In this document: piece after piece, positions 3,641 through 60,225 of the stretch | Numbering within the stretch: the stretch's first letter is position 1 | Layout of the letters: every line of letters starts with the position of its first letter | Virus record (IMG/VR): IMGVR_UViG_3300018432_000005 | Location: 1 to 64,000 of that record | Length of the DNA: 64,000 bases | Strand: one strand, 5' to 3' | DNA from: a virus | Position numbers and translations under genes: made by a program | The notes under the pieces: generated by a model | Seen by the model: only the letters and a program-made list of their open reading frames with translations | What the model was told of the DNA's origin: nothing | The model's database searches: none

Positions 3641-3680
3641 ACGTCTCAACTTCTGAGCGTCTGGACGCTCGAAAGGTCAA
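3641..3680 (+). repeat. Octamer array A (5 units) before the protease gene
   Basis: Five consecutive in-phase octamers: ACGTCTCA, ACTTCTGA, GCGTCTGG, ACGCTCGA, AAGGTCAA. They fill the gap between the portal stop (3638-3640) and the protease ATG at 3685, and the last unit supplies the AAGG of the ribosome binding site. Same consensus (ACGTCTGA-like) as the arrays elsewhere in the window. Proposed binding site for the RHH protein at 41482-41961; that link is inference. Confidence 0.75.
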
Positions 3681-9990: not shown

Positions 9991-10011
9991 CCGCCCGACG
10001 ACGGCCTTCGA

Positions 10012-10107
10012 GCGTCCGAGCATCTGAGCGCTTCGGCGCTTGGACGCTCGGACGTCTGTCGTTCTGCACGTCCGACGGTCTGAACGTTTAGACATTTGGG
10101 GGTCTCA
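10012..10107 (+). repeat. Octamer array B (12 units) before the tail tube gene
   Basis: Longest array: twelve consecutive octamers in perfect phase, including GCGTCCGA, GCATCTGA, GCGCTTGG, ACGCTCGG, ACGTCTGT, ACGTCCGA, CGGTCTGA and ending GGGTCTCA, two bases before the tube ATG at 10110. The ribosome binding site (GGGGG) is part of the last two units, so a protein bound here would cover it. Same consensus as the array in front of parA. Confidence 0.82.
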
Positions 10108-22084: not shown

Positions 22085-22825
22085 ATGCTCTTTTTCCGCG
22101 TGCTGCAGCACCTACTGCCCCAGGCAACTGCGTGGCGGATCACGGTGCAGAAGACCTTACGGTCTTTCTTCGAGGGCCTCGCCGTCGCTCCGTCCGACGT
22201 GCGCGACTTTGCCGACGCAGCTTGGCTCGACATCTTCCCCACGACGACGCGTGAGCTTGACCGCTACGAGACGCAGTTCGGCCTGACGCCGGCTGCGACC
22301 GACGCCGCGCGCCGGCAGCAATACGCGGCCGCATGGAGCGCCCAGGGCGGGCAGTCGCCCAAGTACCTGCAGGACGTGGTGCGCGCGGCGGGCTTCGACG
22401 TGTACCTGCACGAGTGGTGGATCCCCGGCACGCAGCCGCCGACCAAGCGCGACCCGCGCGCCTACACGACGCTGCCCGAGATCGGTACCGTCCAGTGCGG
22501 CGAGCCGCTCGCCCAGTGCACCGAGCCCGACGCGCCGCAGCCCGACCCGTTGCCCGTTGGCGTCGAGGTCTGGGAGCTCTACCCGCAGTGCAACGAATGG
22601 CTCGTCAATGACCCCGGCTATCTGGTCAATCGCGACCTGACACGACGTGCGCCGCCACCGGTGCCGAGTGATCCCGCGCGCTGGCCTTACTTCGTCTACT
22701 GGTGCGGCGAGACGTTCGGTCAAAAGGCCAACGTCCCCGCAGCGCGCCGCGGAGAGTTCGAGCGCCTCTTGCTCAAGCTCTGCCCGGAATACGCCTGGAT
22801 CGTCATCTACGTCGACTACGTCTGA
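22085..22825 (+). CDS. Tail protein, Mu gp48-like (YmfQ family)
   Basis: 246 residues. DIFPTTTRELDRYETQFGL is the signature of the gp48/YmfQ (DUF2313) family. Four Cys pairs in the C-terminal half (CGEP..C, ECNEW-like, WCGE, CPEY) could bind metal. Separated from gp47 by fibre and lipoprotein genes. Its stop codon is the TGA inside the first unit of octamer array D. Confidence 0.85.
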   Translation: MLFFRVLQHLLPQATAWRITVQKTLRSFFEGLAVAPSDVRDFADAAWLDIFPTTTRELDRYETQFGLTPAATDAARRQQYAAAWSAQGGQSPKYLQDVVRAAGFDVYLHEWWIPGTQPPTKRDPRAYTTLPEIGTVQCGEPLAQCTEPDAPQPDPLPVGVEVWELYPQCNEWLVNDPGYLVNRDLTRRAPPPVPSDPARWPYFVYWCGETFGQKANVPAARRGEFERLLLKLCPEYAWIVIYVDYV

Positions 22826-22857
22826 ACGTCCGAGCGTTCGAGCGCTTGGGGAGGTTG
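22818..22857 (+). repeat. Octamer array D (5 units)
   Basis: ACGTCTGA, ACGTCCGA, GCGTTCGA, GCGCTTGG, GGAGGTTG in phase. The first unit provides the TGA stop of the gp48 gene, and the last provides the GGAGG ribosome binding site of the next gene (ATG 22864). The whole intergenic region is therefore made of array. Confidence 0.75.
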
Positions 22858-28591: not shown

Positions 28592-28961
28592 CGTGGTGAC
28601 CAAGGGCATCCACCTCGCCCAGGAGCACGCCCGCAAGGTCGCACGCGGTCTGCTGACGAGCGCGAGCGTCACGCCGCAGGACAAGCTCGAGATCGCGAAG
28701 TCGGCCGCGCGCAGCCTCGCCCCGAAAGCACTGGCCGAGGTCAGCGAAGACCAACTCGAGATCCTGATCGAGGCCAAGCTCGCCAGCATGCGCCCCCCGC
28801 CTGACCCCTCGGCGCGGCGCCTGCAACCCTCGTCACCGGCTCCGCGCCACAGCATCCCGCCCCCCGGCGCCATCCCCTACTACGAGCACGGGCACGCGCC
28901 CTTCAGCCCCAGCGCGGCAACGCCTGTCCCAGGTCGAAGCCGTCGACCGCAAGACGTCTGA
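28410..28961 (+). CDS. Holin-like membrane protein (LLH type)
   Basis: 183 residues: one N-terminal membrane helix (AAVMLAIGALFSLILVFGLRLA, about 16-37), then the soluble helical pattern TEAQHRTIDDVVTKGIHLAQEHARK found in LL-H-type phage holins, and a Pro-rich tail. GGGGGG lies 4 bases before the ATG. Likely part of host lysis. The TGA stop is inside the first unit of octamer array E. Confidence 0.65.
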   Translation: MLTDLTPDDAQSLSAAVMLAIGALFSLILVFGLRLARKATKQFEVATGIKLTEAQHRTIDDVVTKGIHLAQEHARKVARGLLTSASVTPQDKLEIAKSAARSLAPKALAEVSEDQLEILIEAKLASMRPPPDPSARRLQPSSPAPRHSIPPPGAIPYYEHGHAPFSPSAATPVPGRSRRPQDV

Positions 28962-29033
28962 ACATCTAACCGTCTGCCTGTCTCAACGTTCTACCGTTCA
29001 ACCGTCCGAACGTTTGGACGGTTCGAGGTGTTG
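28954..29033 (+). repeat. Octamer array E (10 units)
   Basis: Ten in-phase octamers filling the whole gap between the holin-like gene and the next ATG (29036): ACGTCTGA, ACATCTAA, CCGTCTGC, CTGTCTCA, ACGTTCTA, CCGTTCAA, CCGTCCGA, ACGTTTGG, ACGGTTCG, AGGTGTTG. The first unit holds the upstream stop codon, and the last carries the GAGGTG ribosome binding site of the next gene. Confidence 0.82.
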
Positions 29034-31097: not shown

Positions 31098-31433
31098 TCA
31101 GCCCGGCTCGCCGACGCCCCCGCGTCCCGCCGCTTTGCGCTGCTCGAGCTCGTGCTGCTCGATCATCAGGCCGGCGTTGTTGACGACGATGTCTAGCGGC
31201 CCAGCGAGCACGCGCTCGAGCTCATCGTCGAGGCAGGCGAGGGCGACGTGCTCGCGGTCGTCGCGGTCGACCAGCACCACGGCCGCATGGTCGCCCTGTC
31301 GCTGGGCCTCGATGTACAGGTCGCGCGCGCGCACCTGCAGCGGGCACTCGAGAATCACGTACGCGCGGGCGTGTTTGGTGCAGCCGACCATGGGCGGGGG
31401 ATCCGTTCTAGCGGGGGGCCTGTCCCCGCTCAT
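31098..31433 (-). CDS. Possible small protein, minus strand
   Basis: Up to 111 residues (ATG 31433) or 97 (ATG 31391). The central part KHARAYVILECPLQVRARDLYIEAQRQGDHAAVVLVDRDDREHV is protein-like. Start overlaps the stop of the next upstream ORF as ATGA, typical of real phage genes. No good ribosome binding site and no recognised family. Confidence 0.42.
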   Translation of the reverse strand: MSGDRPPARTDPPPMVGCTKHARAYVILECPLQVRARDLYIEAQRQGDHAAVVLVDRDDREHVALACLDDELERVLAGPLDIVVNNAGLMIEQHELEQRKAAGRGGVGEPG

Positions 31434-31777
31434 ATATCCGCACTTCGGAAAACCCCACGAACAAAGATCGGGCCAAGGGCGATTTGCCGTCCAGGCGCCC
31501 GCCTACGCCTCCCGTCGACGCGGATACCCCAGCCTGCGACCCCTCTCGAGAAAGACGCCTGCGCGGACGTCAGCAGCGCGGCGAGGGCTTGTTGACGGGT
31601 CCGCATCACCCACCCCATCCCAAGCCCGTACGGTGCGCTGACGATGGCGCGAAGAAGCACGCGAGAGCGTGACCGTGGTGCGCGCGGGGAGGGCGTCACG
31701 AGTCGCCCATCGGGCGCGAGAATGGTCGTCCGGTAACCCCCTGCTCGAGCAGCAAGGCGAGCCGGCGTTCTCCCCAT
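31430..31777 (-). CDS. Possible small protein, minus strand, weak
   Basis: 115 residues, Arg-rich, with GYRTTILAPDGRLVTPSPRAP. Supported mainly by the ATGA junction with the downstream ORF. Codon usage is less biased than in neighbouring genes, so it may be spurious. Confidence 0.3.
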   Translation of the reverse strand: MGRTPARLAARAGGYRTTILAPDGRLVTPSPRAPRSRSRVLLRAIVSAPYGLGMGWVMRTRQQALAALLTSAQASFSRGVAGWGIRVDGRRRRAPGRQIALGPIFVRGVFRSADI

Positions 31778-32152
31778 GTGGGAAGCGGCCGCGCCTCCCC
31801 TGCACCCCTACGCTGCGAGCGCTCCGCGACCGGGCCCTGACGCGGCGACCGCATCAGATCAACGGAAAGGCATCGCAGCGGGCAAACCCGCTACGAAGCG
31901 TAGTAGGACGGCCCGCTAGGATCGTCTTGCCCGTTGATCACAGCCGATCCCCGCGCTGTCCCCATCCTGCAGCGCGGCTTGCTCGGTATTTCGTCAGCGT
32001 TCGGTCGGCTCCGAGCGGCACTCGGGGCTTTCGAGCGAGCCCACGACGCCGCTACCACTGAACGGAAGAACCGCAGAGCGACGCTCGGGGCCTTCTTTTC
32101 AGGGTGTTTCGGACTGCAGACGGATCTCGCCCTTGGCGGATCAGGAGCGTCG
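31778..32152. other. Non-coding, hairpin-rich stretch (375 bases)
   Basis: No convincing gene in either strand. Adjacent hairpins AGCGGG-CAAA-CCCGCT (31877-31892) and CTACG-AAG-CGTAG (31891-31903); CCGCGCTG (31951-31958) pairing with CAGCGCGG (31970-31977); and a GCTCCGAG/CTCGGGGC stem (32009-32029) followed by TTT. It could hold a structured RNA, a replication or recombination site, or merely the terminators ending the + strand late transcript. Confidence 0.5.
32009..32032 (+). terminator. Probable terminator of rightward late transcription
   Basis: GCTCCGAG-CGGCA-CTCGGGGC (one G-T pair) followed by TTTCG. A second T-rich element (GGCCTTCTTTTC, 32089-32100) follows a weaker stem. Both face the 3' end of the minus-strand gene at 32153, where a convergent terminator is expected. 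Confidence 0.45.
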
Positions 32153-33040
32153 TCAGCCGGCGCGCAGCTCGCGGTGCAGATCGGCGAGCTCGCCCAGGTC
32201 GTCGGGCAGCCCGTCGACGGCGATGCGCTCGCGTGCGGTCAGCGGCTCGTCATCGATGTCGGTCGACGTCGACGGCGCAAAGCAGCGCAGCATCTCGCGC
32301 GAGGGCGGCAGCAGCAGCCGCGCCTGCGCGTAGGCGTACTTCGAGCCTTCCGCGCGCGGCCGCACGGCGCCATCGGCGTCGAACTTCGGCTGCCACACGT
32401 GCACGAGCCCATGCATATCGGACTTGCCGCGCGGGGTCTGACGGTCTGCGCCGCGCAGGATGCGCTTGTAGGCGTCGAGCGTGCGCGGCGCGAGGTCTTC
32501 GCGCGCGGACAAGCCCTGGGCGCGCGCCTTGGGCACGTGATGCAGTCGCACCTTGCCCTCGCACTCGAAGACCTCGCCCGATTCGGGGTCGATGACCTCT
32601 TTGATCTCGGGCCGCAGCTCGTGCTTGTGCCCGACGAATCCGCCCGCATCGACGACGCGATATTGCGAGCCATGTAGTGTCACCGCGGACCACCAACGGA
32701 AGAAGAAGTGCACGACGCGGCGTCTTTTGCCGATGGTCGGGATCTGCTCGAGCAGCCGCTGCATGGCGCGCTGCCAGATGCGGCCGCCATCGTCGTCACC
32801 GAATGCCGCGCGCAGCACGTCGGGCAGGCTACGGCCCTCGTGCAGCATCGCGAGCACGTGCCCGAAGCCGACGGCCTTGGGCTTCTTCTTCGGCTTGGGG
32901 CGCTGGCGCCTGGGCTGCCACCTACTACCGCGGTCGAACGAGCGGTCGCCCACGCGGTTGCGGGGTGTCCTCTTTCGAGTCGTGCGGGAGGGTGCGCACC
33001 TGGCTTGCGCACCGGCCGCGGCGCTGTTAGCGTCGGCCAT
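32153..33040 (-). CDS. Unknown DNA-related protein, possible replication initiator
   Basis: 295 residues. Basic, disordered N-terminus (about 1-55, rich in Arg/Lys/Pro), then a helical domain (GFGHVLAMLHEGRSLPDVLRAAFGDDDGG) and a mixed domain with SDMHGLVHVWQPKFDADGAVRPRAEGSKYAYAQARLLLP. No family recognised. It stands alone on the minus strand behind a long leader (33041-33208) that contains a strong hairpin and a TTGACA. A lone, leader-controlled basic protein in a phage with a partition system makes a plasmid-type initiator conceivable, nothing more. Confidence 0.72.
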   Translation of the reverse strand: MADANSAAAGAQARCAPSRTTRKRTPRNRVGDRSFDRGSRWQPRRQRPKPKKKPKAVGFGHVLAMLHEGRSLPDVLRAAFGDDDGGRIWQRAMQRLLEQIPTIGKRRRVVHFFFRWWSAVTLHGSQYRVVDAGGFVGHKHELRPEIKEVIDPESGEVFECEGKVRLHHVPKARAQGLSAREDLAPRTLDAYKRILRGADRQTPRGKSDMHGLVHVWQPKFDADGAVRPRAEGSKYAYAQARLLLPPSREMLRCFAPSTSTDIDDEPLTARERIAVDGLPDDLGELADLHRELRAG

Positions 33041-33051
33041 AACTAGTAGGG

Positions 33052-33092
33052 AGCACCGGGGAGCCTGTCAGGGCGTCGATCCGGTGCTTTTT
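33052..33092 (+). terminator. Hairpin plus T-tract in the leader of the 33040 gene
   Basis: AGCACCGG (33052-33059) pairs with CCGGTGCT (33081-33088) and is followed on the + strand by TTTT, so it reads as a rightward terminator. On the minus strand it is a leader hairpin 12 bases before the start codon of the 32153-33040 gene. It could end a rightward antisense RNA covering that start, or protect the accessory genes to the right from read-through. Confidence 0.6.
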
Positions 33093-33202
33093 CGTTTCCG
33101 TCTTGCTGGGGTTTTTTGTGTCGGGTCTGTGCTTCGTACGCTGACCAACGTTGGCCCGGCAAGCTTTCAGTGCAGATATGAAAGGCTAGCCCGCAACTTT
33201 GC

Positions 33203-33208
33203 TGTCAA
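33203..33208 (-). promoter_or_regulatory. Possible -35 (TTGACA) for the 33040 gene
   Basis: Perfect TTGACA on the minus strand about 165 bases before the start. No clean -10 at 17 bases (CCTTTC), so the promoter is tentative. This region (33041-33280) is visibly more AT-rich than its surroundings. Confidence 0.3.
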
Positions 33209-33347
33209 TTCCTGTTGCTGTACGTCTTTGGATACGATCTGCCACGATCGCGCCCTTGCACTCCTTCCTAAACTAGCAATGATTTCGCGCATGAAACCGA
33301 TAGTCGAAAGGCGTCGCCCCGCATCCTCCATTCAGGTCAGGGCGCCG

Positions 33348-33764
33348 ATGGCGCAGCGGACAAGCGGATCGGGATCGTCACTTGGTCCGCAGCGACCCGC
33401 CGCGGAGGCCCAGCCGCCGAAGAAGAAGCAGCCCGCGCCGCCGCCCATCGCGGCCGAGGTGTTGGCGCGCGAGAAGCGCATCGCCCTGCAGCGCAACGCA
33501 CGGCGTGAAGAGATTGCCGAGGTCGTCCGCGCCATCGTCATCCACCTGGGTAACGAGGCGCTGATCGAGCTGGCCGAGGCCGAGCTCGCCGCGCGCAACC
33601 TCGCCGGGCCGCCGAAGACGAAGCGCGAGGGGGCGCCCAGGCGATACACGACCTACCTGCCGGAAGCACTCGGCGCTCGCCTGAACGCCCATGCGAAGAC
33701 CGAAGCCGTCAGTCCGCAATCGATTGTAGTGCGCGCTCTGGAGTTGTATTTGACGGACCGATGA
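33348..33764 (+). CDS. Ribbon-helix-helix protein
   Basis: 138 residues from ATG 33348 (AGG about 10 bases upstream); in-frame ATGs at 33279 and 33291 would add up to 23 residues but lack a ribosome binding site. Lys/Pro/Ala-rich N-terminus, then helices, then a C-terminal RHH: RRYTTYLPEALGARLNAHAKTEAVSPQSIVVRALELYL. Probably a DNA-binding regulator of the operon that follows. One of three RHH proteins in the window. Confidence 0.75.
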   Translation: MAQRTSGSGSSLGPQRPAAEAQPPKKKQPAPPPIAAEVLAREKRIALQRNARREEIAEVVRAIVIHLGNEALIELAEAELAARNLAGPPKTKREGAPRRYTTYLPEALGARLNAHAKTEAVSPQSIVVRALELYLTDR

Positions 33765-41297: not shown

Positions 41298-41482
41298 CGG
41301 GTCGACCTTCGCCCTGCGCGCCGACGAGACAGGCCTCGCATCGCACGCACGTCGGCGATGACCTCCACCACGACGAAGGGAAGGGCGACGAGCAGGATCG
41401 GCGAGCCGGTCCGCGCGAAGCCGTAGACGGCGAGGGCGCCGACGGCCAGATCGAGCAGCACCATCGGCAGAGCGACGAGCAT
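41294..41482 (-). CDS. Small membrane protein
   Basis: 62 residues from ATG 41482 (a GTG directly before it is possible). Two membrane segments (LVALPMVLLDLAVGALAVYGF and ILLVALPFVVVEVIADV) and a basic tail. Directly downstream of the RHH partition partner. Confidence 0.62.
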   Translation of the reverse strand: MLVALPMVLLDLAVGALAVYGFARTGSPILLVALPFVVVEVIADVRAMRGLSRRRAGRRSTR

Positions 41483-41961
41483 CACGCGCGGCCCTTCTTC
41501 TTCGCGACCGCCTTCTTCTTCGCCGCGGGCTTGCCGGTCGGCTTCTTCGTGCGGTAGGCGGGGCCGCGGCTGGTCTGCGCGGCCGGGGGCTCGACGCCGA
41601 TACCGATGGCCGCGAGCGCGCGGTCGACCGTGTCGCTCATCGACTCGCGGGTCGCGCGCGCGTGCTCTTCGAGCGCCATGCCCCGCGCGGCAGGGATGTT
41701 GATCGTCATCTTGCGCAAGAGACGCGCACCGCGTCGGGACCCGTCGCCCAGCACGCGGCCGGCCCTTTGGATGTAGCGCGGATCGTTGTCTGGCAGTCCG
41801 AGCGCTTGAGCGGTCAGACTGCTGGACGTCTGAACGATCGTACGTCCGTACGTCAGGGCGTCTGACCCTTCGAACTTGCGCTCGAGCTGCTTTGTTGCCG
41901 CCTCACGCTGTTCGCTTGAGAGGGCACGAGGGCGCACGACAGGGACCTTTTTAGACGGCAC
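41482..41961 (-). CDS. RHH centromere-binding partner of ParA (type Ib ParB-like)
   Basis: 159 residues from GTG 41961, behind AGGAG, overlapping the parA end by 11 bases. Basic N-terminal arm, then a ribbon-helix-helix in the second half: LLRKMTINIPAARGMALEEHARATRESMSDTVDRALAAIG (about residues 85-130), and a Lys/Pro/Ala-rich tail. Small ParA followed by an RHH protein is the ParF-ParG / delta-omega arrangement, in which the RHH dimer binds short tandem repeats and often represses transcription. Not homologous to HTH-type ParB. Its own coding region carries an octamer array (41786-41873). Confidence 0.78.
   Translation of the reverse strand: MPSKKVPVVRPRALSSEQREAATKQLERKFEGSDALTYGRTIVQTSSSLTAQALGLPDNDPRYIQRAGRVLGDGSRRGARLLRKMTINIPAARGMALEEHARATRESMSDTVDRALAAIGIGVEPPAAQTSRGPAYRTKKPTGKPAAKKKAVAKKKGRA
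41786..41873 (+). repeat. Octamer array H (11 units) inside the RHH gene
   Basis: Eleven in-phase octamers within the coding sequence: TTGTCTGG, CAGTCCGA, GCGCTTGA, GCGGTCAG, ACTGCTGG, ACGTCTGA, ACGATCGT, ACGTCCGT, ACGTCAGG, GCGTCTGA, CCCTTCGA. Because 8 is not a multiple of 3 the repeat runs through all three codon phases, so it is selected as DNA, not as peptide. It encodes the Ser/Thr-rich stretch before the RHH domain. Confidence 0.8.
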
Positions 41962-42640
41962 GCTTTGCACTCCTGTTCTTGCGCTGCAGGCGGCCGTCAA
42001 GCTCGCTGCACAGTGCTTGGATCTCTTCTGATGCGACGCTCTTTAGGTCGTACGTGGTCGGCCCGAGCCCCAGCGCGTAGCACTCGCTGTAGTTGACGAG
42101 CAGCGTCAGGTCGGTCTTCGCGACCGCGATTTGCGCTTCCGAGAAGCTCTCGCGCAACTGCCGCGCAATCGTCGTGCCGCGCTGCAGCTTGCACAGCACG
42201 ATCACCGCGTCGATGTCGGGCCGCAGCTCGAGCGCGTCGCCGACCTTCGACATCGTCTCGCCCATCGCCTCGACCTCGATGGGCGCAGGTCCACACGGCA
42301 GCACGACCAGATGGCTAAACCCCATCGCGACGGCCGCCGTGCGGTCGATGGTGCCCGGCAGGTCGATGACGACGACGTCATAGTTTCGCGCTGTCGCCTC
42401 AAACTCGATCTTGAAGTTCTCTTTCGTCATCGGCACGACCATCGGGCCGCCCTCGACCTCGTGCTCTTCGGCGTTGCGGTAGAACTTCGTCGAGGCGCGC
42501 TGCTCGACGTCCAGGTCGAGGATCACCACGCGAAGGCCGCGCCGGCTCCACTCGCACCCGCACGCGATGGCGAGCGTCGATTTCCCGATGCCCCCCTTCA
42601 CGCCTACGAACGCGATCACGACCTTGCGACGTTTGACCAT
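41951..42640 (-). CDS. parA: ParA partition ATPase (small, type Ib)
   Basis: 229 residues. Deviant Walker A GVKGGIGKST (13-22) with the signature Lys15, Walker A' in VVILDLDVEQRAST, Walker B in YDVVVIDLPG. No N-terminal HTH, so it is of the short Soj/ParF type. ParA forms ATP-dependent gradients on the nucleoid that move the partner-centromere complex; it ensures plasmid inheritance. Here it implies that the prophage can live as a low-copy plasmid. Octamer array F lies between its promoter and its start. Confidence 0.92.
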   Translation of the reverse strand: MVKRRKVVIAFVGVKGGIGKSTLAIACGCEWSRRGLRVVILDLDVEQRASTKFYRNAEEHEVEGGPMVVPMTKENFKIEFEATARNYDVVVIDLPGTIDRTAAVAMGFSHLVVLPCGPAPIEVEAMGETMSKVGDALELRPDIDAVIVLCKLQRGTTIARQLRESFSEAQIAVAKTDLTLLVNYSECYALGLGPTTYDLKSVASEEIQALCSELDGRLQRKNRSAKRAV

Positions 42641-42644
42641 CTAC

Positions 42645-42684
42645 CCGTCCGAACTTTCAACCGTCCGAACGCTCAGACGGTCGG
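42645..42684 (+). repeat. Octamer array F (5 clear units) upstream of parA, candidate centromere
   Basis: CCGTCCGA, ACTTTCAA, CCGTCCGA, ACGCTCAG, ACGGTCGG in phase, with weaker units continuing to about 42708. It occupies the parA leader, 5 bases from the start codon, in the place where parS/parH-type centromeres and operators lie in type Ib systems. Confidence 0.8.
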
Positions 42685-42689
42685 GCCGC

Positions 42690-42718
42690 AGAATGTCGCA
42701 GCGTTCCGGCGAGTGCAA
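42690..42718 (-). promoter_or_regulatory. Probable parA promoter
   Basis: TTGCAC (42718-42713) and CATTCT (42695-42690) with 17 bases between. Transcription would start near 42683, at the edge of octamer array F, so a protein bound to the array would block parA transcription. Confidence 0.6.
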
Positions 42719-42928: not shown

Positions 42929-43324
42929 ATGCTGACCCCCGAGCAAGTCGAGCGACTCAAGCGCAAGCGTGAGACGACGGCCGCGCCCGTCGCGACCGCT
43001 GCCCCCGCGCCTGCAACGCCTGCAACGCCTGCAACGCCTGCAACGCCTGCAACCCCAGCCGTCGAGCGCGCACCGGGCCGCTATCGCGCGACCCCCTCGC
43101 AACTCGACGCGCTGCTGCAGCTCGGCCAGCGCATGACGGACGCCGGCATGGTCAGCAGCGCCGACCTTGCCGACGCGTGCCTCGCGATGGCGGCGCTCAC
43201 CCTGACCAATCCACTGGCACCGCCGATCAGCCGCGCGCGCTTCATCGAGCTCGCCGCGGCCGCTTTCGACAACGCCGACACCATCCCACTCGACCAGCGC
43301 GCCAAGCCAGAGCCGACACCATGA
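42929..43324 (+). CDS. Small protein with Pro-Ala-Thr repeat
   Basis: 131 residues, probably from a leaderless transcript. Residues about 20-45 are an Ala/Pro/Thr linker made of Pro-Ala-Thr triplets; the rest is a helical domain (QLDALLQLGQRMTDAGMVSSADLADACLAMAALTLTN). Unknown. ATGA overlap with the next gene. Confidence 0.7.
   Translation: MLTPEQVERLKRKRETTAAPVATAAPAPATPATPATPATPATPAVERAPGRYRATPSQLDALLQLGQRMTDAGMVSSADLADACLAMAALTLTNPLAPPISRARFIELAAAAFDNADTIPLDQRAKPEPTP
43008..43056 (+). repeat. 9-bp tandem repeat (GCAACGCCT)
   Basis: About five head-to-tail copies of GCAACGCCT, the source of the Pro-Ala-Thr repeat. In frame (multiple of 3), so length change would only alter linker length. 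Confidence 0.85.
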
Positions 43325-45886: not shown

Positions 45887-46342
45887 TCAGCGATGACCCT
45901 TGCCCGCGCTCGAGCGCGCGCGGGTCAGCTGAGAGACCAGATTCGCGCCCTCGGCTCGCACACTCGAGAGCGTGTCTTTGTCGCCGGCAGCCGCGCGAAA
46001 TACGCGCTGCAGCCATGCCGCGCGCGCGAGCCCGCATTCGGCCGCCGCTTCGTCGATCCATTCGGCCTCGTCGGTCGGCACGAAGAACGAGATCGCGACC
46101 CCATCGGACCCCTCTCCGAGGCGCCCATCTTCGAGCGCTGCGCCGCGGGTCGGCTTGGCTTCGCGGCGAATCTCGGTCGCCCTCTCGAGCTTGCCCGCAG
46201 CCGTCATGCACCAGATGCGGTAACAGATGCGCGGCAGGTAGCCCGATGCGTGCGTGGCTGCGCGCACGAGCTCGCGCGACTCCACATCCCGCATGCGGAC
46301 GCTGATCTGTTTCTGCGGCACCGCCGACTTGTGTCTTCCCAT
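45887..46342 (-). CDS. Tandem RHH-like DNA-binding protein, leaderless
   Basis: 151 residues from ATG 46342. Two RHH-like segments: QKQISVRMRDVESRELVRAATHASGYLPRICYRI near residue 15, and VAISFFVPTDEAEWIDEAAAECGLARAAWLQRVF near residue 90. A strand-helix-helix pair twice in one chain would act as an intramolecular dimer. Driven by a dyad promoter with the start codon 7 bases from the -10, so it may be a regulator of, or regulated with, that promoter family. Confidence 0.7.
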   Translation of the reverse strand: MGRHKSAVPQKQISVRMRDVESRELVRAATHASGYLPRICYRIWCMTAAGKLERATEIRREAKPTRGAALEDGRLGEGSDGVAISFFVPTDEAEWIDEAAAECGLARAAWLQRVFRAAAGDKDTLSSVRAEGANLVSQLTRARSSAGKGHR

Positions 46343-57332: not shown

Positions 57333-58283
57333 TCAGGTAACGAAGTCGTCGCCGCGCATCTCGCCGCCCGCGCCCGCACGCGAGTTGTCGCCCGCTTCGT
57401 GGCGCTGCTCCTGCGAGTCGGCCGCCTCGCTGGCGATGTCGCTGACCTGGGCGAAGAGCTTTGCCTGATCGGCAAGCAGGTCGATGGTCGTCTTTGGCAG
57501 GATCTCGCCGCGCGTGATCAGCGGCGTTGCGAAGTTGCCGTTTTTCGAGATCTCGAGCGTCAGCGTGCACGCGAAGGTGTACAGCGGCACGTTCACGCGC
57601 GACCCGTTGGGCAGGATGCGGCGGCCGAGGTGATGCTTCTGCATGTGCGTCTTGAGCGGCGGCAGACCCGTGCGCTTGAAGCGCAGAAGAAAGCCATCGG
57701 TCGGCCGGTTCTGCTCGTCCAAGTGCGCGGCGAAGATGCCGTACACGGGATCGCAGTTGCGAATGTTCTTGCCGGCGCTGTTCTGATGCCAGTCGGAGTC
57801 CGGGCACGTCTTGCAGTCGCGCACGGTGCCCTGGACGATGGGCAGGAGCTCGCCGCGCGGCCCCTTCAACTGCAGCCCGTCGGGGTGCTTCTCGCGCATC
57901 CTGCCAGTCACGCCGTCTTTGCTCGAGCAGTAGATGACGTTCTCGTTCGTGTCGTTATTGAACCGCGAGAACAGCCGCGTCTTGTGCAGGTGCACGAACG
58001 CGACGCGCAACTGACGGTGCGAAACCTCGTTCAGCGTGTCGTAGAACTCGTCGAGGCGGCGAAGCTCGTTCGTCTTGGGATCCTTGCCCTTCATGTTCCA
58101 GACGATGACGGGCAGCCGCATGTCGTCGCTGTCGGCCTCCTGCAGGCCGTCGTCTTCGACCTTCGTATCGCCATAGAGCGCGGCGAGTTGCTCGGCTTCG
58201 GTCTGCGGCGCGGCCGCGAGCGCCGACGTCGCACTGTTGTCTGCCGTCGAGAGCGCAGCGGCCGTCGCGTCTTTCTTCACCAT
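57333..58283 (-). CDS. Putative recombination-associated (ssDNA-binding-like) protein
   Basis: 316 residues from ATG 58283 (GGGGGA 4 bases upstream; ATG 58298 and GTG 58313 are alternatives). RLDEFYDTLNEVSHRQLRVAFVHLHKTRLFSRFNND..., VRDCKTCPDSDW with a Cys site, and a beta-rich C-terminal half. Similar proteins stand beside Cas4/RecB-type nucleases in phages, where an annealing or ssDNA-binding protein is expected. Function inferred from position. Confidence 0.72.
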   Translation of the reverse strand: MVKKDATAAALSTADNSATSALAAAPQTEAEQLAALYGDTKVEDDGLQEADSDDMRLPVIVWNMKGKDPKTNELRRLDEFYDTLNEVSHRQLRVAFVHLHKTRLFSRFNNDTNENVIYCSSKDGVTGRMREKHPDGLQLKGPRGELLPIVQGTVRDCKTCPDSDWHQNSAGKNIRNCDPVYGIFAAHLDEQNRPTDGFLLRFKRTGLPPLKTHMQKHHLGRRILPNGSRVNVPLYTFACTLTLEISKNGNFATPLITRGEILPKTTIDLLADQAKLFAQVSDIASEAADSQEQRHEAGDNSRAGAGGEMRGDDFVT

Positions 58284-58325
58284 GGCTTCCCCCACCATCC
58301 TTGGCGCCCACACCCGAGCGCATAA

Positions 58326-58389
58326 CTGTCTGAACGTTTCACCGTCTCAACGCCCGAACGTTCGACCGTTCAAGCGTCTGGATGCTTAG
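58326..58389 (+). repeat. Octamer array G (8 units)
   Basis: CTGTCTGA, ACGTTTCA, CCGTCTCA, ACGCCCGA, ACGTTCGA, CCGTTCAA, GCGTCTGG, ATGCTTAG in phase. Lies between two minus-strand genes; the last unit contains the stop codon of the nuclease gene (58386-58388). Confidence 0.8.
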
Positions 58390-59675
58390 TCGTCGATGCT
58401 GAGTTCGTCGGTCGCGCCCAGGTCGACGCCCCGCAGTGCGTCGCGCATCTGCTTGGCCTCGTCGCCGTCGAGCTCGAAGCCCGACGTCAGGCACGGGCCG
58501 CTGTACGGACAGCGGTCGCATTTTTCGCCAACGGCCTCGACGAAGCGCCCAAAGCGCACCCACCCGACCACCGAGCGCAATTGCCGCTCGAGCCGCGTGA
58601 CGTCGTCGGCCCTGCGCTGCACGGTCAGCCACGCGCCCCCGCGGTACTGCCCCGGCTCGTACTTGATCTTCTCGTCGCGCTTGACCTCGCGTCCGAAGAC
58701 GCGCGACCAGTATTCGAGGTCTTCGGGCCGCTTGACCTGCTTGTCGCCCTTCTTCGTGTACGGGATGTAGTCGCGCAGTTGGGTCAAGCGGATCACGTCG
58801 GGGAACTTCTCGAAGCGCACCGCGCCCTCGACGAGCACGCCCTCGGTCTCCCGCTTCTTCGCGACAGCACGCAGAGACAGGTGCATCGCCGCGCGCTCCG
58901 TGGGCGCGGCGCCGATGGCCTTGACGTCCCAGGGGTCGAGCGGCACGTCGGCGAGCCGGTCTTCGTTCGCTGCCTGCCGCCACGCATCGAGCACCGTCGT
59001 CGGGAGAAAGGTCCCTTCGGCCAGCGCGTGCGCGTAGATGCCGCCCTCGTAGCCATGATCGAGACGCTTCTGATGCGGCTTTTGCGCGCCCGTTTTCCAG
59101 TCCGTGAAGGCGAGCGACTCGGGCGCCTCGACGGGGCGGTAGATCAGGTCGGTGTGACCTTCGAGCCAGAGCTCGCCCATCTTGACGATGAAGCCGGCCT
59201 CGACGAGCTCGACGGCCGCGACGTACCGATGCATGTCGGCAAACAGCCCCGTCACCATCGCGACGCCTTCGTCGAGCGCCTTCTGCGCCTCGCTCTTTCC
59301 GTACCAACGGACCTCACGGCCGGCGACGGTGCGCGCGAACTCCGTCTCGAGCACGCTGGTCAGCCGCTCGGCCGACGTAGCGGGCTTGCCGGCGAGGATG
59401 CTGTCGCGGACCGCCTGGTTTCGAAGCGCGCGCGCGATGGTCTCGTGCACGGCCGTTCCCATCTCGGTTTTGCCCGAACACGTCTCACGCGCTGCGTGTA
59501 CGAGTTCGGCGATGCGGTCGAACTTGAACTGCTGCGTGCACGCGTACTCGCCGATCAGCGTGGACATGTGGCTTTTGTGAATGGGGTCGGCGAGCGTCCC
59601 CCACTTTCGAAAGTCCCAACGCGGGGGCTTGCTCGGGGTGACGACGGGCAGCCGACGCGCACTCGTCGCAGTCAC
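58386..59675 (-). CDS. Cas4/RecB-like PD-(D/E)XK nuclease with Fe-S cluster Cys
   Basis: 429 residues, GTG 59675. Nuclease core: His77 in GTAVHETI, EGHTDLIYR (Asp175), AFTDWKTGAQ (Asp192, Lys194), then a QxxxY-like GYEGGIYAHAL. Cys46 (YACTQQF) with the C-terminal CDRCPYSGPC would hold a 4Fe-4S cluster as in AddB and Cas4. Likely end resection for recombination, paired with the protein at 57333. Confidence 0.88.
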   Translation of the reverse strand: MTATSARRLPVVTPSKPPRWDFRKWGTLADPIHKSHMSTLIGEYACTQQFKFDRIAELVHAARETCSGKTEMGTAVHETIARALRNQAVRDSILAGKPATSAERLTSVLETEFARTVAGREVRWYGKSEAQKALDEGVAMVTGLFADMHRYVAAVELVEAGFIVKMGELWLEGHTDLIYRPVEAPESLAFTDWKTGAQKPHQKRLDHGYEGGIYAHALAEGTFLPTTVLDAWRQAANEDRLADVPLDPWDVKAIGAAPTERAAMHLSLRAVAKKRETEGVLVEGAVRFEKFPDVIRLTQLRDYIPYTKKGDKQVKRPEDLEYWSRVFGREVKRDEKIKYEPGQYRGGAWLTVQRRADDVTRLERQLRSVVGWVRFGRFVEAVGEKCDRCPYSGPCLTSGFELDGDEAKQMRDALRGVDLGATDELSIDD

Positions 59676-60006
59676 GAGCGACCCCCGTCGATTGCTTGCT
59701 GACCCACTTGGGCGGGGAGTGTCGTGGTCGTCGTGTGCGACATGATCTTACTGTCGTCCAGACACTCAGATCGACTCGCGCCGCGTTCTGTCGCGTGTGT
59801 CAGTTTTCGTCCGGTCACAGACGGGACCATGACAGTTCACGACCTGCGCGCGAAGTGGTTTTCGACGTGGGGCAACATCTGGGGCTAGAAGTGTCCGGGC
59901 GTAAAATGTCGAGCAGTCAGACTTGCTCGTGCCCAGTCTGCAGACGTGTCTGTTCGTGCGATTAGCACCTTGCGTAACTGACATTCCGCGCCCTACTCTC
60001 CGGGTC
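59676..60006. promoter_or_regulatory. Regulatory region between the nuclease operon and the XRE gene
   Basis: 330 bases with no convincing gene, separating divergent units. Repeated CAGAC/GTCTG words, including CAGAC-GT-GTCTG (59941-59952) and CAGACACTCAGATC at about 59760, look like operator half-sites. The rightward promoter is annotated separately; no clear leftward promoter was found. Confidence 0.5.
59970..59999 (+). promoter_or_regulatory. Promoter of the XRE regulator (leaderless)
   Basis: TTGCGT (59970-59975), 18 bases, TACTCT (59994-59999), ATG 7 bases later. Same core as P7, without the AAACGCTTGC dyad. Confidence 0.68.
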
Positions 60007-60225
60007 ATGGTGGGGCTCGGGAAGAATCTGCGGATGGCGCGCGTCGACGCGAACGTCTCCGTGCAAGAGGCGGCAGAGAAGACCGGGTATTCCGTGCGCA
60101 CGATCCAGCGCTGGGAGACGGACCGCTTCGAGCCCAACGCGGACGGCTTCAATGCGCTGGCGGAGGCGTACGGCTGCACGCTCGACAAGCTGATCACGGG
60201 ACGCGAGCGAGCGCGCGCCGCGTAA
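60007..60225 (+). CDS. XRE-family (Cro/CI-like) regulator
   Basis: 72 residues: LGKNLRMARVDANVSVQEAAEKTGYSVRTIQRWETDRFEPNADGFNALAEAYGCTLDKLITG is a complete XRE HTH domain. ATG 60007 fits a leaderless transcript. Lying between divergent operons at the early end, it is the best Cro-like candidate for controlling lytic growth. Confidence 0.88.
   Translation: MVGLGKNLRMARVDANVSVQEAAEKTGYSVRTIQRWETDRFEPNADGFNALAEAYGCTLDKLITGRERARAA

Follow-up and report, generated by a model that had tools for sequence, protein, structure and literature searches.

A ParF-like partition gene, an overlapping RHH-like partner and dispersed octamer arrays in a circular myophage genome

The DNA analysed here (the window) comprises positions 1-64000 of a virus record 73,138 bp long, and its genes were called with a simple codon-usage script written for the analysis and not with a standard gene finder. 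On the minus strand, parA (41951-42640) encodes a ParF-like partition ATPase of 229 aa, the single ParA match in the whole record. As an initial annotation of this DNA had proposed, the protein is short and has a deviant Walker A motif (KGGIGKST, residues 15-22); it also lacks an N-terminal HTH domain, and this combination is that of type Ib ParA proteins. The profile PHROG_164 (ParA) matched it with E 2.5e-31, the best PDB match was ParF (4dzz, E 1.2e-10), and the NCBIfam model ParA_partition (NF041546) covered the whole domain from residue 8 with 129.8 bits, which falls below the curated cut-off of 180 bits. The nearest named relatives are the ParA proteins of the Sandaracinus plasmid pSa001 (35%) and of the Myxococcus plasmid pMF1. 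Upstream of parA the next called gene is divergent (42929-43324, plus strand). A promoter had been annotated upstream of parA, but none was detected by a consensus scan, a method that misses some types of promoter.

Overlapping parA is a gene for a candidate centromere-binding protein of 159 aa (41482-41961, minus strand), hereafter the partner. Its frame is open up to 42000, and our preferred start is the GTG at 41961, which has AGGAG eight bases upstream and creates an 11-nt overlap with the parA stop. The codon-usage gene caller begins the gene at 41709. The coding signal is strong from about 41712 down and weak above, where the N-terminal region is encoded across an octamer array, and the true start could therefore lie further down. 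We favour 41961 over 41709 because of the Shine-Dalgarno sequence, the overlap with parA and the same layout in a myxobacterial contig (L054, described below). The C-terminal end of the partner is a Lys-rich tail. Searches of the partner against Pfam, including the ParG profile, PDB, NCBIfam and plasmids gave no match, and against phages it yielded weak partial matches to Streptomyces phages only.

We compared six RHH segments (ParG, pMF1 ParB and four candidates) without gaps with 17,352 windows of the phage proteome. Partner residues 84-120 ranked second (z 4.3), and this segment can be aligned gaplessly with the RHH domain of ParG and with those of the other five proteins, which are partition binders or candidates for that role. 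With the PDB sequence of ParG, the partner and the top-ranked protein (33348-33764) kept this order. A custom RHH HMM scored the partner weakly (9.3 and 5.9 bits), and AlphaFold predictions from single sequences of the full-length protein and its C-terminal 82 aa were of low confidence. An RHH segment in the partner is thus weakly supported by sequence comparison. The gene overlap described in the initial annotation stands, while the RHH assignment is weaker than was stated there, and the phage encodes another RHH protein.

Tandem octamers had also been reported upstream of parA, and they are confirmed. The array at 42645-42684 consists of five units, CCGTCCGA ACTTTCAA CCGTCCGA ACGCTCAG ACGGTCGG, and is a candidate centromere and operator. 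Type Ib centromeres are tandem repeats of 7-8 bp, with at least four contiguous units, upstream of parA, and these five units have that form. The unit consensus is ACGTYYRR, and arrays of it occur at eight sites round the phage genome, one inside the partner gene and most others at gene junctions; the interval covered by the initial annotation (41482-42718) holds just two of the eight. We scored each array with a matrix from whose training it had been left out, and used 60 order-3 Markov genomes as the null. The array upstream of parA scored 27.4 (highest null genome: 19.1) and that in the 5' half of the partner gene (41794-41873) scored 22.9 (null maximum: 18.5). Within the virion genes, an array fills the 44-bp gap between the portal and head protease genes (3641-3680; score 32.3), and another, in two registers, lies between the tail sheath gene and the next gene, from gene order presumably the tube gene (10004-10107; scores 20.7 and 29.6). 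Further arrays were found at a tail-region gene junction (22818-22849, four units; 35.4), at another gene junction (28954-29025, nine units; 30.6) and in the early region (58310-58389, ten units; 34.1), between the minus-strand genes 57333-58298 and 58386-59567, the latter exonuclease-like. The eighth array lies outside the window, at 69401-69440 of the record (22.2). Every phage array has four or more units; in pSM19035, at least four contiguous repeats are needed to activate ParA (PMC9499535). A same-strand polarity of the arrays was considered and rejected, because the reverse complement of ACGTYYRR is a cyclic permutation of the same octamer and the orientation of an array is therefore uninformative.

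The window is GC-rich and holds many short repeats of other periods, which could suggest that the octamers arose by chance or from base composition, or that ParA and its partner are decayed remnants. We regard this as hardly credible: every array site, when left out of training, scored above all 60 null genomes, the phage genome with the arrays cut out reached a maximum of 14.0, and ParA is intact and matches its family over the full length.

The closest counterpart of the octamer was found in the parCAB system of the Myxococcus fulvus plasmid pMF1 (PMC3235114, PMC7843461), whose type Ib-like ParA is about 30% identical to that of the phage and whose small binder gene likewise follows parA. 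By EMSA or footprint, pMF1 ParB binds octamer iterons with the motif AGATGTCT at ItA-ItF, six dispersed sites that lie partly inside genes (PMC3235114). A matrix trained on the phage arrays alone ranked six places of pMF1 at the top (20.7-29.0), followed by a seventh at 8.1; the maximum of a Markov null for pMF1 was 15.8 in 200. Two of these six are ItA and ItB at their printed coordinates, and the other four fall within the region described for ItC-ItF (PMC3235114). The pMF1 iterons (AYGTYTRR) are nearly the same as the phage octamer and are dispersed, also inside genes, in both replicons; a plasmid with six sites stands against a phage with eight. The two systems differ in that the phage partner is longer than pMF1 ParB and not detectably similar to it outside the RHH segment, and in the kind of evidence, binding for the pMF1 sites and sequence for the phage arrays. 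In pMF1 the parC gene stands immediately ahead of parA; in the phage the called gene on that side is the divergent 42929-43324. The octamers of pSa001 and of mycobacteriophage RedRock differ in sequence from the phage octamer, indicating that systems of this kind do not generally match each other as the phage and pMF1 do. The repeat had been presented as new in the initial annotation, which the nearly identical dispersed iterons of pMF1 contradict.

We also searched 379 genomes from the phylum of G014, a MAG titled Deltaproteobacteria SZUA-265. ParA was found at E up to 1e-15 in 24 genomes and the octamer pattern in six, with two matches in all for the reversed control. In one of these 24 genomes, the myxobacterial contig L054 carries parA, an overlapping RHH gene with a weak Pfam ParG match, and several arrays of the phage octamer, one of them inside the RHH gene as in the phage. 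The phage, pMF1 and one myxobacterial contig thus each combine ParA with octamer arrays.

These comparisons bear on which protein binds the octamers. The second RHH protein (33348-33764, plus strand; 138 aa) has no match in a Pfam search, but ranked first among the 17,352 windows of the gapless comparison and was detected by the custom RHH HMM at its C-terminal residues 98-136 (E 3.4e-6). It is much closer than the partner to the binders of related ParA systems (summed score 184 vs 45) and has the usual binder shape, a long N-terminal tail followed by a C-terminal RHH. The octamers could accordingly be the centromere of the ParA system while their binder is this unlinked protein. We consider that unlikely: the RHH gene comes immediately after parA in pMF1, pSa001 and L054, as the partner gene does here; the parA-linked gene contains an array, as does the L054 RHH gene; and no array lies near 33348. 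A further protein of 144 aa (45887-46321, minus strand) has two RHH-looking stretches and weak matches to NikA-like and VapB antitoxin models.

The placement of the arrays could instead point to transcriptional control. They avoid coding sequence (only 1 in 20,000 random placements had as few coding bases, the partner-gene array being counted as coding), most lie at gene junctions, and several of these are within the virion gene block. On this evidence the arrays might mainly serve a phage-wide repressor as operators or roadblocks, much like the stoperators of mycobacteriophages, with a minor role in partition or none. However, the phage octamer matches the sites of a proven partition binder, pMF1 ParB; the wide gaps at 31392-32152, 32954-33347 and 59568-60033 are free of arrays; and terminase relatives that lack ParA also lack arrays, and we therefore judge this explanation very unlikely. 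The relatives in question are 13 terminase-related viral records, in which ParA was not detected and in which an array scan of the parts present (several records are fragments) found none, with one weak score of 17.3; the parts scanned include the portal-protease and sheath-tube junctions of some records. At the portal-protease junction the genes abut or overlap in six of them (gap -20 to 14 bp) vs a gap of 44 bp in the phage. Between sheath and tube genes, four relatives have 52-108 bp and the phage 162 bp. The initial annotation had called for a search of related phages for the parA pair and its octamers; apart from these records, neither ParA nor the partner nor the major capsid protein recovered a relative when searched against viral contigs, and no close relative with the parA pair was found there.

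Partition by octamer repeats has been described in a phage before. In RedRock, two parS loci consist of eight 8-bp direct repeats, and the prophage is extrachromosomal at 2.4 copies (PMC7157519), so that the phage setting, too, is less novel than had been claimed. RedRock and its relatives resemble the present phage, in which no integrase was detected, in having no integrase, in a ParA gene overlapped by an RHH-like ParB gene and, for RedRock, in a parS of 8-bp direct repeats that adjoins the par genes. They differ in carrying just two or three parS loci, near parAB (PMC7157519), and RedRock also in its repeat sequence and in a ParA about 24% identical to that of the phage. To ParF-ParG of TP228 the phage system is linked by the ParF match of its ParA and by the gapless alignment of the partner RHH segment to ParG; in contrast, it is located on a phage genome, has dispersed arrays and has a longer partner with a Lys-rich C-terminal tail. 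Dispersed centromeres are also listed for prophage N15, RK2 and pSM19035 (PMC3235114). With these the phage shares several centromere sites across one replicon, but not the repeat. The partition systems of N15 and RK2 are of other types. The phage par system is therefore a further example of an already known kind. In pSa001 itself, a long octamer run (CTCACRAG and relatives) lies directly upstream of parA (L023:5109-5950) and is a candidate centromere with a different code.

The ends of the record share a 123-bp overlap and the terminase frame runs across both, which shows that the record, and with it the 73-kb phage genome, is circular. Genes for the large terminase, portal, head protease, major capsid, tail sheath, tape measure and baseplate mark the phage as a myophage; a primase-helicase, RecD-like pieces, a methyltransferase and an HTH_3 protein are also encoded. 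No match to tyrosine recombinases (PF00589) or resolvase-type serine recombinases (PF00239) was found in the record, and by these profiles the genome is without a detectable integrase. Structural and partition genes thus lie together on a circular replicon without a detectable integrase, as in plasmid prophages. Given the ParF-like ParA, the overlapping RHH-like gene, the pMF1-like arrays, the circularity and the lack of a recombinase match, we conclude with a probability of roughly 78% that the locus is a type Ib-like ParABS system with dispersed centromeres, which segregates a circular low-copy plasmid prophage. A type Ib system in a low-copy plasmid prophage was also the proposal of the initial annotation and is the best-supported reading, on a less certain RHH assignment. 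The host is probably myxobacterium-like, judged from relatives only.

We infer octamer binding, ATPase stimulation, segregation, autorepression and lysogeny for this system along the following lines. The product of the parA-overlapping gene would form RHH dimers, each occupying a single octamer, and these would bind cooperatively along the arrays. The array-bound complexes would then engage nucleoid-bound ParA-ATP and stimulate its ATPase, and the stimulated ParA would move phage copies apart before division. By occupying the array that precedes parA, the binder could also act as repressor of its own operon, and the spread over eight sites would add partition complexes to each phage molecule. 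Dispersed arrays may also restrain nearby transcription during lysogeny.

If so, a myophage joins mycobacteriophages and a Myxococcus plasmid among the replicons with octamer-type partition, and the relatives of this myophage point to Myxococcota. Since the phage repeats so closely match the sites proven for pMF1, cross-binding and incompatibility are predicted. The arrays at virion gene junctions and in the binder's own gene raise the question of a link between partition and late-gene control. That one partition protein both segregates the prophage and, through the virion-junction arrays, silences late genes is a speculative extension which we think unlikely; if it were true, partition and lysogeny would depend on a common set of sites distributed round the genome, and a prophage deprived of the binder would become unstable and be induced.

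Octamer scans of viral contigs yielded mostly simple repeats, and ParA was not detected in the best candidates, which were rejected. The 109-kb viral record of L098 contains 80 bp of tandem phage octamers (L164:19915-19994) and gave no ParA match. A 58.6-kb contig (G089:C33; L155, L168-L170) carries at least five arrays close to the phage octamer and no ParA by the profile used. Besides the ParA of L054, the genome to which this contig belongs encodes one that goes with a different octamer, of the ACGTTATA type (L055, L052). Lastly, in a genome of the G014 phylum, a 576-bp run of 72 octamers of the ACGCTTCG and ACGTCCCG types lies near a ParA gene (L056:7118-7693).
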